This document shows positions 27,541 through 30,326 of a stretch of DNA of 64,000 bases, one piece after another. This DNA is from Candidatus Rokuibacteriota bacterium. GTDB lineage: Bacteria; Methylomirabilota; Methylomirabilia; Rokubacteriales; CSP1-6. Within the stretch, counting starts at the first letter, position 1; each line of letters begins with the position of its first letter. The position numbers and the translations under genes are program-made. The stretch lies in the NCBI GenBank assembly GCA_003220225.1, contig QHRU01000034.1, positions 1 through 64,000 of the forward strand, given 5' to 3'. The notes beneath the pieces were generated by a model. It saw only the letters and a program-made list of their open reading frames with translations. It was not told where the DNA came from and searched no databases.

Positions 27541-28437
27541 TCAGCGTCCGAGCAGGAAGTCGAGCATGCGCTCGGTGGCGGGTGGGCCCGGGGGATACGT
27601 GTGCGTCCCGCGCGCCTCGCCGCCGCTCCACGCGTGGCCCATGCCGGGCACGAGCCACGTCTCGAGCCGCGGGTGGCCGCGCGCGTCGCGGTGGACGGCG
27701 TGGACGGCGCCCTCGGCCGGCTCGGTCGTCGCGCTCGACGCGCCGAGCGCGCGCGCGAGCATCGCCTCCAGCGCTGAGAGGTTGAGGGGGCTGACGACCG
27801 CGTCGGCATTGCCCTGCCAGAGGGAGGCGCGCAGCGGCAGCGTCGTCAGGCCCGCGGCGCGCAAACACGCGGCCGCCGAGACGCCCGGCTCGGCGCCGAG
27901 GCCGCGCATGCACTGGATGGCCCCCGTCGACCCGACGCCGCAACGGTAGGCGCCGCCGGCCATCACGCCGATGCCGGTCACCACGCGCGGCGCCGCGCAC
28001 GCGAGGTTCACGGCCATGAAGCCGCCCGCGGAGAAGCCGAGCACGACGAGGTGCGGATCGCGCAGGCCGCGCTCGGTCTGCACGCGGCGCGCGAGCGCCA
28101 GGATCTCACCCACCTCGCCTGCCGCCGGCGAGGCCTCGTCGGCGAACCAGTTCCAGCAGCGGTAGGCGTTGTCGCGCCGGCTCTGCGCGGGGTAGACGAC
28201 CACGAGCCCGCGGCGCTCGGCCACGTCGTTGAGCCGGGTGCCGAGGGCAAAGTCCTCCGGCGTCTGCCAGCAGCCGTGCAGCGCGACGACGAGCGGCCCC
28301 ACCGGCGGCGTGCTCGGTGTGAAGAGCGCGTAGCTGCGGCCCTCGTGTCGGCCGCTGGCGAACGTCCCGGCGGCGCGCGCCGGGGCTGCCGCGAGCGTAG
28401 CCAGCAGGATCATGACGACAACGCATTTTTCGATCAT
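27541..28437 (-). CDS. Secreted PHB-depolymerase-type esterase (LpqC-like alpha/beta hydrolase)
   Basis: 298 residues with a signal peptide (MIEKCVVVMILLATLAAAPARA). The oxyanion segment LVVALHGCWQ, nucleophile elbow GFSAGG, Asp in QGNADAVVSPLN and His in GMGHAWSGG complete a catalytic triad of the esterase PHB depolymerase family. The natural substrate may be a polyester, feruloyl ester or similar. ATG 28437 lies inside the first copy of a 69-bp tandem repeat; an internal ATG at 28413 is an alternative. The frame runs further upstream only through the repeats. Confidence 0.88.
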   Translation of the reverse strand: MIEKCVVVMILLATLAAAPARAAGTFASGRHEGRSYALFTPSTPPVGPLVVALHGCWQTPEDFALGTRLNDVAERRGLVVVYPAQSRRDNAYRCWNWFADEASPAAGEVGEILALARRVQTERGLRDPHLVVLGFSAGGFMAVNLACAAPRVVTGIGVMAGGAYRCGVGSTGAIQCMRGLGAEPGVSAAACLRAAGLTTLPLRASLWQGNADAVVSPLNLSALEAMLARALGASSATTEPAEGAVHAVHRDARGHPRLETWLVPGMGHAWSGGEARGTHTYPPGPPATERMLDFLLGR

Positions 28438-28627
28438 TTCACCGCTCGCCTCGCCGGAGGCACCGGCTCGGCTCGCACTGCCATCTCGGCTCGCATTTTC
28501 GGTCATTTCACCGCTCGCCTCGCCGGAGGCACCGGCTCGGCTCGCACTGCCGTCGGCTCGCATTTTCGGTCATTTCACCGCTCGCCTCGCCGGAGGCACC
28601 GGCTCGGCTCGCACTACCGTCGGCGGG
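28424..28627. repeat. Three tandem repeats (periods 69 and 67 bp)
   Basis: Copies begin at 28424, 28494 and 28561. Shared core on the plus strand: TCATTTCACCGCTCGCCTCG followed by CCGGAGGCACCGGCTCGGCTCGCACT read as separate blocks. Each copy contains the inverted repeat GCCTC-CGGC-GAGGC (minus strand). The copy nearest the esterase supplies its start codon, and the farthest copy includes the stop codon of the adenine deaminase gene. There are no spacers, so this is not a CRISPR array. Confidence 0.9.
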
Positions 28628-30326
28628 ACGGCAGCAGCACGCGGGCAGCCTTGACGTCCCAGACGCCGAGCGGGGTCAGGCGCGCGGCCGGCAGGAAGTC
28701 GGCGGACAGGAACAGCATCGTGAAGAACGGTTCGTGGAACGAGGAGCCGCGCTCGGTGAGGTGCCGGGACAGCTCGCGCTCGTGGCGCGCGGCCTCCGGC
28801 AACTCGGCGCGCGTCATGATGCCGCCGAGCGGCAGCGGCAGCTCCCAGGCCACGTCGTCGCCGTCCACCAGCACCACGCCGCCGCGGACCTCGAGCAACC
28901 GGTTGACCGCCCGCGCCATCGACTCCGGGCGGCGCCCGAGCGTCAGGATGTTGAAGTCGGTGGAGATCGTGCTCGCCAGGCCGTCCAGGCGGTCGGCAAA
29001 GCCCGCCACGAGAGCCGGCGCCACCCAGCGGCCGCGGCGATCGACGAGGGCGGCGTGCAGATCGCCCGGCTGCGGCGCGCGCTCCTCGACCTTCGTGATC
29101 ACCGCGCTCACCAGCCTCAGGACGGGAAACGTCGCGCGGCCGGGGAGCCGGAAGTCGGCGGCTCGCGCCCGCCAGCGCGCCGTCAGCCGCGCCGCCGGCG
29201 TCGAGAACACGCGCCGCCAGGACGGCTCGGGGATCGGCACGAGCGTCCGGCCCTCGCGCGCGGCCACGCGCCCGCGCGCGACGACGGTCTCCGGCCGCGG
29301 CTCGCTGAGGTCGCGCAGCAGGCAGATGTCCGCGTAGCGGCCCGGCGCGATGCCGCCGAGGTCGGCGTCCTTGCCGAAGTAGGTCGCCGGGTTGAGCGTC
29401 GCCATGCGGTAGGCGTCCAGCGGCGGCACCCCGCGCTGCATCGCGGTCCGGATCAGATGGTCCACGAAGCCGTGCTCGAGGACGAAGGCCGGCATCGAGC
29501 CGTCGGCCGTGAGCATCGCGCGGGCGGCGAGTCCCGGCGCCTCCTTCAGCGCATCGAGCAGGTCGCTGAGGTCGGGACGCAGCGAGGACTCGCGGAGCAT
29601 GACCGCGATCCCCAGCCGGGCGCGGTCGAGGACCTCGCGCGCGGTGATCGGCTCGTGGTCGGAGCTGAGGCCGCCGGCGGCGATGGCCGCGAGCCTCTCC
29701 ACCGAGGCGCCGGCGGTGTGGCCCTCGACGCGCTGGCCGCGCGCGAGCGCCAGGTCGAGGCGTGCGAGCAGATCTGGATCGCCGGCGTGCACCTCGGGCC
29801 AGCGGGTCACCTCGCCGGCGGCGACGGCGCTCGGGTGCGCGAGGGCGCGGGCGAGGTCACGCAGCGGGAACCGCCTGGCCTCGTCGGTCGTCCGGCTCTG
29901 GGCGTGCGGGCGGATCATCCAGTAGAACTTCACGGGCGAGCGGGCCAGGGCGTCCGCGACCGCCGTGAACGCGCGCACCCCGCCCAGCTCCCAGAACTGC
30001 AGCGTGTCGGCGAAGAGGGTGGTGGTGCCGAGCGCCAGCACGTGCCGCGCCAGCGCGGAGGGCGTGATGACGTGCGCGGGGTGGACGTGGGGATCGACGT
30101 AGCCCGGCACGAGGACGCGCCCGCCCGCGTCCAGCACGGTCGTGCGCGCGCCGACCATGTCGTCGCGCGCGCCGACGTAGGCGACACGCTCGCCGTGGAC
30201 GGCGACGTTCGCCGGGTAGAGCTCGCCCGTGTAGACGTTGAGAAGGGTCCCGCCGCGGACGTAGAGATCCGCCGGGGCGGCGCCGCGCGCGACGGCGGTG
30301 AGGCGCCGTCGCTCGGCGACCTTCAC
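28614..30326 (-). CDS. ade: Adenine deaminase
   Basis: 570-residue amidohydrolase converting adenine to hypoxanthine and ammonia in purine salvage. Metal site in YVDPHVHPAHVITPS, substrate region GTTTLFADTLQFWELGG, EGHTAG, GLSSDHEPIT, LTADGS and the C-terminal ADE domain (AALVDRRGRWV, GLASTISTDFNILTLG). GTG 30326 overlaps the stop of the preceding small gene in GTGA. The start region of the ORF upstream is antisense noise. Its stop lies within a tandem repeat array. Confidence 0.9.
   Translation of the reverse strand: MKVAERRRLTAVARGAAPADLYVRGGTLLNVYTGELYPANVAVHGERVAYVGARDDMVGARTTVLDAGGRVLVPGYVDPHVHPAHVITPSALARHVLALGTTTLFADTLQFWELGGVRAFTAVADALARSPVKFYWMIRPHAQSRTTDEARRFPLRDLARALAHPSAVAAGEVTRWPEVHAGDPDLLARLDLALARGQRVEGHTAGASVERLAAIAAGGLSSDHEPITAREVLDRARLGIAVMLRESSLRPDLSDLLDALKEAPGLAARAMLTADGSMPAFVLEHGFVDHLIRTAMQRGVPPLDAYRMATLNPATYFGKDADLGGIAPGRYADICLLRDLSEPRPETVVARGRVAAREGRTLVPIPEPSWRRVFSTPAARLTARWRARAADFRLPGRATFPVLRLVSAVITKVEERAPQPGDLHAALVDRRGRWVAPALVAGFADRLDGLASTISTDFNILTLGRRPESMARAVNRLLEVRGGVVLVDGDDVAWELPLPLGGIMTRAELPEAARHERELSRHLTERGSSFHEPFFTMLFLSADFLPAARLTPLGVWDVKAARVLLPSRRR

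Follow-up and report, generated by a model that had tools for sequence, protein, structure and literature searches.

A tandem array between a deaminase and an esterase gene belongs to a dispersed, structured repeat of Rokubacteria that contains stop and start codons

The window analysed here is a stretch of 64,000 nucleotides from a Candidatus Rokuibacteriota bacterium (contig QHRU01000034.1, positions 1 to 64,000). On its minus strand, an adenine deaminase gene (28614-30326; domains Adenine_deam_C, Pfam 3.5e-34, and Amidohydro_1) is followed by the gene of a PHB-depolymerase-type esterase of 298 aa (27541-28437; Pfam Esterase_PHB, 7.4e-27). The junction holds a tandem array at 28422-28624, also on the minus strand, which Tandem Repeats Finder describes with a period of 67, 3.0 copies, 95% matches and a score of 358, the highest of its 11 rows in the window. 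The initial annotation had reported tandem repeats of 67/69 nt between the two genes, and these are real: there are three copies, the unit measures 67 or 69 nt, and the copy-to-copy spacings are 69 and 67. With the in-register copy at 28486-28552 as reference, the copy at 28553-28619 matches at 99% and the one at 28417-28483 at 82%, the latter because its edge is host sequence.

Each copy is also matched, on the minus strand, by a covariance model of a dispersed element. In transcription order these are copy A (28561-28620; 71.6 bits, E = 1.2e-17), the middle copy B (28494-28553; 72.7 bits, E = 5.5e-18) and the last copy C (28425-28484; 75.3 bits, E = 1e-18). The hairpin core of copy A (GTGCGAG...GAGCGGTGA, 28575-28614) contains covarying stems and two GA/GA internal loops, and the same core is found in B (28508-28547) and C (28439-28478). 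The TAG stop codon of the deaminase (28614-28616) lies within copy A, the deaminase-proximal one, which alone reads TAG at this place; the other two read CAG. The motif GGTGAAATG is present in all three copies, and its ATG in copy C (28435-28437) is the called start of the esterase. The stop of the deaminase and the start context of the esterase thus both lie within the repeats, as the annotation had claimed, and many copies elsewhere hold such codons too. Because the two genes are on the minus strand, the copy that the annotation called first is the last in transcription order. Between these codons, the ATG of copy A opens a mini-ORF of 21 codons (28508-28573) with a TGA 1 nt ahead of the ATG of copy B (28504-28506); the latter is in frame with the esterase ATG, 69 nt upstream of it, and might give the esterase an N-terminal extension of 23 residues.

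A search for the unit elsewhere revealed a dispersal through the genome and the family that the initial annotation had overlooked. BLAST placed the 67-nt unit at 27 sites of the 6.03-Mb genome of origin. When up to 3 mismatches are allowed, a 20-nt core has 28 matches in this genome and a reversed-pattern control has 0, so the repeat is not due to chance. We built a covariance model (R1) from 43 copies, out of the 54 distinct ones listed and the window copy. Scoring up to 137 candidates per genome, it gave at least 38 matches in the genome of origin and was positive in 19 of 24 genomes of the same family (Ca. Rokubacteria), with at least 84 matches in one of them (G020), and in 0 of 16 genomes outside the family. 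Of 95 genomes from the phylum, 16 were positive for a strict pattern; each of the 16 belongs to the family, for which 57 genomes were included. Exact matches to the core occurred in 49 DNA stretches when one genome per species was scanned (84,980 species), and 48 of these stretches are titled Candidatus Rokubacteria or Rokuibacteriota. Viral contigs gave no exact match to a 19-nt core pattern, and the Rfam 15 covariance models gave none in 28300-28750 up to E = 1. Among the matches listed in a search of open-licence papers, we found no description of the repeat.

To study its context, we searched the window and 61 loci with the model, which gave 97 matches (hereafter copies) in 66 arrays, with 1-4 matches per array. 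The pattern used to draw the sample of genome contigs required AAATG. Loci L001-L008 were left out because they duplicate loci of the genome of origin, and so was L047, labelled Novosphingobium, which has one match to the 3' half without the 5' half. A loose regular expression was discarded in favour of the covariance model, since it returned 144 'arrays' that were mostly coding noise. The family is non-coding, dispersed, structured and sited in operon-like gene pairs, as expected of small interspersed folding repeats.

The sense-strand consensus reads RTGG[C/T]N-GTGCGAG-SY-GAG, a variable hairpin, CGAG-SC-GAGCGGTGAAATG, then RYYSRARR. The unit thus has a stop-codon site at its 5' edge; its hairpin, which contains two conserved GA/GA internal loops, is followed by GGTGAAATG and by an A-rich tail. 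The tail lies 3' of the sense-strand hairpin in loci of about 71% GC. Conservation ends about 8 nt 5' of GCGAG and about 17 nt 3' of GAGC. In 26 pairs of copies with identical cores at different loci and unrelated flanks, the shared sequence extends beyond the core by no more than 7 nt on the 5' side and 10 nt on the 3' side, which indicates that the copied unit spans about 50-60 nt. The stems and loops follow the order UGC/GCG, GA/GA, GSY/GSC, GA/GA and a variable stem-loop. In an alignment (A1) of the 37 copies with a 13-nt loop segment, 92.6% of cells pair, against 74.9% after shuffling, and the covariation score is 0.409, a value reached by 0 of 500 shuffles, against 0.152; slid pairings score at most 0.119. 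Two of five covariation measures, the pairs changing on both sides (6) and the further pair types (13), are not above the shuffles. RNAalifold recovered 10 of the 12 pairs unaided, and conservation at the GA positions is complete or at least 90%. Wobble pairs form on the sense strand only, with U8.G42 in 35 of 37 copies and U15.G35 in 23 of 37. These frequent U.G pairs and the GA mismatches would favour the sense strand as the one that folds, and the GA/GA loops are probably sheared tandem G.A pairs.

The arrays are strongly biased in placement and orientation. Both neighbouring genes were called for 58 of the 66 arrays; 51 of these lie between co-directional genes in the sense orientation, 6 are antisense, 1 is between divergent genes and none is between convergent ones. 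The excess of sense over antisense arrays (51 vs 6) has p = 6e-10, in a set that includes orthologous loci and is therefore not fully independent. Junctions in the same loci are by contrast evenly distributed between the strands, with 182 ++ and 167 --, besides 17 +- and 16 -+. Neighbouring copies within 300 nt are on one strand in 31 of 31 cases, and their tandem spacing modulo 3 is unbiased (11, 11 and 9). Both the anatomy and the placement of the element are well supported. The adjoining genes look like a mixed housekeeping set, as judged from the starts of their proteins; the names we use for genes other than the deaminase and the esterase are those we take them to have from our own reading of the sequences. 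Two loci are atypical. The antisense array of L029 is inside a gene called on the opposite strand, and in L012 (1923-2137) four tandem copies stand directly ahead of a tRNA-Gln gene instead of a coding gene, the last of them without ATG (GGTGAAAACG).

The 5' edge of the element was analysed in the 63 of 66 arrays with a readable 5' anchor. Where the upstream gene enters the first copy still open and in the frame that reads CAG/TAG, TAG is found in 10 of 11 first copies. It is found in 2 of the 44 that are entered in the main other frame or have no gene open into them (p = 2e-8). These classes exclude four arrays of the third frame (0/4 TAG) and four in the TAG frame whose upstream gene had already stopped before the site. 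When entered in another frame, the element can terminate the gene with the TGA of GAGSTGA, and does so in 14 of 18 copies. We considered whether this TGA is matched to the frame as well. It differs from the TAG-frame copies (p = 0.0004), and not clearly from the baseline of other copies: the T at the GSTGA site is present in 13 of 22 copies without an open gene and in 18 of 28 later copies. It is thus common in any frame, and the in-frame TGA count is no evidence of selection. Among 13 stretches of the genome of origin, four upstream proteins (L009, L011, L014 and L020) end in a repeat-encoded -GSAS. In two species, a gene resembling rplJ runs through the element (L013, 1808-2428, and L030) and has a repeat-encoded C-terminal tail.

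The start test covered the 49 of 66 arrays in which a sense gene lies no more than 150 nt from the last ATG, leaving aside 12 arrays without such a gene and 5 without ATG in the last copy; the gene starts are those chosen by our own codon-usage gene caller. In 21 of the 49 arrays, the next gene is read in the frame of the last ATG, which in 12 of these 21 is the called start itself. In another 15 of the 49, this ATG opens a mini-ORF with a stop that shares 4 or 1 nt with the called start. In-frame and overlapping arrangements therefore total 36 of 49, against 17 and 18 when the other two frames are used, and 23 against 5 and 18 in the 35 arrays with a called start downstream of the ATG. Gene offsets equal to 1 modulo 3 are under-represented (6/49, p = 0.001). 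The overlap of 4 or 1 nt occurs in 15 of 35 cases at element loci and in 23% of non-element junctions at the same distances, which were taken from the element loci (p = 0.009); given this background, the excess is modest. Such overlaps have the geometry of tight translational coupling, which a spacing of about 20 nt nearly abolishes (PMC10666635). Three arrays (L015, L032 and L042) have the GTG of GGTGA as the called start.

Many orthologous junctions lack the element. Among 22 loci with the deaminase-esterase pair, only two carry it, with three copies in the genome of origin (G000) and two in G023; the model has no match at this junction in the other 20. The two copies of G023 are recognised by sequence, one of them being scored by the model, and their hairpins differ from those of G000. 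In the congeners G001 and G002, the deaminase and esterase genes are 1-2 nt apart, without element. Likewise, the queD junction of G000 is filled, while that of G002 reads GGTGAGATG and neither congener has a model match, and the tRNA-Gln/prs junction has four copies in G000 and none in both congeners. In the best 30 loci of each of three genes, picked since other species showed the element there and hence not a random sample, matches were found in 3 for queD (strong, with 2 more weak and 25 without), 3 for prs (27 without) and 3 for rplJ-rplL (one of them weak, 27 without). These junctions are most simply read as sites of repeated insertion, with loss as the alternative. The queD matches of five g19 genomes (G020, G053, G054, G055 and G056) have one in-frame TGA each.

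The spread of the family is probably the result of mobility. The same 38-nt core is found in opposite orientations on one contig (L029, 722-779, and L070, 7482-7539), and these copies share exactly GTGGAC...AAATGGC, a unit of only about 50 nt, as expected of a copied unit. There was no significant sign of recent genome-specific bursts: in 60 arrays, copy identity is 0.645 within and 0.637 between genomes (389/2000 shuffles). We searched for two candidate mobilising enzymes. The Y1 transposase (PF01797) was found neither in G000, which is 97% complete, nor in the element-bearing G001, G006, G007, G016, G023, G043, G065, G066 and G067. It was found in 11 of 56 family genomes, including G020 and G011 (at least 84 and 15 model matches, respectively). 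A RAYT/Y1 mobiliser is thus rejected for the genome of origin only; since G020 has the most matches and carries the gene, the family may still have spread by a REP-like route. Reverse transcriptase (PF00078) was found in 19 of 56 family genomes, including G000, G020, G023 and G067, and not in the element-rich G006, G007, G016, G043, G065 and G066. Its presence does not track copy number and shows no clear link to the element.

That small folding repeats touch stop codons is known. In Streptococcus pneumoniae, BOX provides the stop codon of a gene in 36 cases, and BOX, RUP and SPRITE are over-represented between convergent genes (PMC3049150). They are small, dispersed and folding like the element described here, and BOX is made of a variable number of tandem modules (PMC3049150). 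Unlike them, the Rokubacteria element lies between co-directional genes in the sense orientation and combines stop, RBS-like and start parts in a single unit. We know of no built-in start context in ERIC/RU-1. ERIC/RU-1 is reported to be a repeat of 127 bp that can fuse to the 3' end of a gene and remove its normal stop (PMC2759123), and ERIC alters mRNA stability depending on its orientation, with an effect that depends on ribosomes (PMC2229807). By its description, our element resembles it as a small, probably mobile intergenic repeat (PMC2759123, PMC2229807). The start side recalls the coupling by overlapping stop and start codons (PMC10666635, PMC6728339), with ATGA / TGATG geometry from mini-ORF or element to the next gene. 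In native coupling, the edge of the gene itself forms the junction; here, a dispersed repeat contains the junction or creates it.

REP/REPIN linked to RAYT transposases are described as short, palindromic, dispersed and often clustered (PMC3733652, PMC2817692). The element is also a short imperfect palindrome with many dispersed copies, but three of the four REP features considered are missing. There is no GTAG tag as a rule (the position is mostly GCNG, with the T that gives GTAG in 26% of 65 first copies), and CGTC is absent from the consensus by inspection. Unlike in REP/BIME clusters, 0 of 31 neighbouring copies are in opposite orientation; unlike with RAYT-linked REP, no Y1 transposase gene was found in the genome of origin. 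The ends (RTGGY..GTGCGAG and AAATGRYY) are not, by inspection, the inverted repeats of a MITE, and no target-site duplication was seen by eye at the compared junctions, where the boundaries are ambiguous by a few nt. Integron attC sites have GTTRRRY as core sites. We rejected this candidate because GTTRRRY is absent from the consensus by inspection and the deaminase-esterase order is native in relatives.

We favour, as the probable explanation, that the array arose when a dispersed Rokubacteria element of about 50-60 nt was duplicated in tandem to three copies, and that this element acts as a portable junction between cistrons. Lying in operon-like gene pairs, the element would be transcribed with its neighbours and read as the sense strand. 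At its 5' edge, the upstream gene would be terminated by TAG or by the TGA of GAGSTGA; the hairpin with two GA/GA internal loops would follow the stop site; and GGUGA-AAUG with the A-rich tail would initiate either the next gene itself or a short leader ORF with a stop overlapping the next start by 4 or 1 nt. Initiation at the AUG of the element and coupling could then affect protein ratios. We propose that the element spread by mobility and became established at stop/start junctions, since there it makes good the punctuation that it destroys. A bolder version seems to us unlikely: a mobile RNA-level element whose sense insertion is targeted to stop/start boundaries, and which, with its own stop, insulating hairpin and start, rewires operon coupling across the family without a known transposase.

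The element may instead be a selfish or neutral REP/MITE-like repeat, small, mobile and functionless, with orientation and frame patterns that are tolerance filters: insertions would persist solely at stop/start junctions, and in the orientation that by chance gives back both codons. This account is possible, if less probable than a portable junction. It fits the patchy distribution, from 0 to at least 84 model matches per family genome, the empty orthologous sites, the mixed housekeeping-type neighbours and the precedents of BOX, RUP and ERIC (PMC3049150, PMC2229807). It accommodates less well that stem pairing is kept while sequence changes, or that 51 of 58 arrays are co-directional and sense with none between convergent genes, where the pneumococcal repeats are over-represented (PMC3049150). 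Processing or stability of the mRNA could also be the key, the hairpin and the A-rich single-stranded tail serving as a cleavage or protection site that makes cistrons unequally stable, as proposed for ERIC. The A-rich stretch after the sense-strand hairpin in GC-rich loci agrees with this, as does the orientation- and ribosome-dependent ERIC precedent (PMC2229807), but the frame-matched TAG and the in-frame or overlapping starts would be left unexplained, and we think it even less likely than the bolder version above.

Two further readings have less to recommend them. A covarying structured RNA at leaders, found at queD, rplL and prs/tRNA-Gln in several species, might control a regulon in cis through a bound protein or small molecule. 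Yet we recognised no common pathway among the genes served, as named from their sequences, Rfam has no match, and most of the best loci lack the element at the junction (25, 27 and 27 of 30 for queD, rplL and prs, respectively), which makes this very unlikely. The initial annotation had regarded the array as a local feature in which changes of copy number move the esterase start and tune expression. Three copies in the window, two in G023 and no match in the 20 other loci speak for such variation, as do arrays of 1-4 model matches in the loci examined. But GGTGAAATG is in every copy, and stop and start are in the outer halves of the array. Recombination between direct repeats keeps these halves, so the deaminase-proximal TAG and the esterase-proximal ATG would stay put at any copy number, and all that varied between these codons would be the count of hairpins and additional ATGs. 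The arrangement is also seen in single copies elsewhere. The idea of local tuning is thus not supported, and is to our mind the most improbable of the readings.

A common view of small bacterial repeats is that they are tolerated at the least harmful sites, for example after converging genes. This family occupies tightly packed co-directional junctions, where the harm should be greatest, and carries the punctuation that makes insertion bearable. Gene ends and starts of Rokubacteria can derive from a repeat, as in the GSAS* tails and the MIE/MTE starts. If the start and stop signals are used, the element would be a natural part that exchanges one type of translational coupling for another in many operons, and the empty and filled versions of one junction in related species allow a direct comparison.

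Other repeats share the intergenic space of these genomes. A second structured repeat, approximately CGCCCGACCGTCG...CCGACGGCACATATAAAGGAG, is located ahead of rplL in G001, G002 and G057 (L130, L131 and L134), and the GA-loop element seems to be nested within it in L016, L018 and L021. A third recurrent motif, approximately CCCGGGTGCCC(A/G)YGCCC followed by an A-rich stretch, is found ahead of rplL in L137, L146 and L149 and also after the element in L040, L041 and L055.
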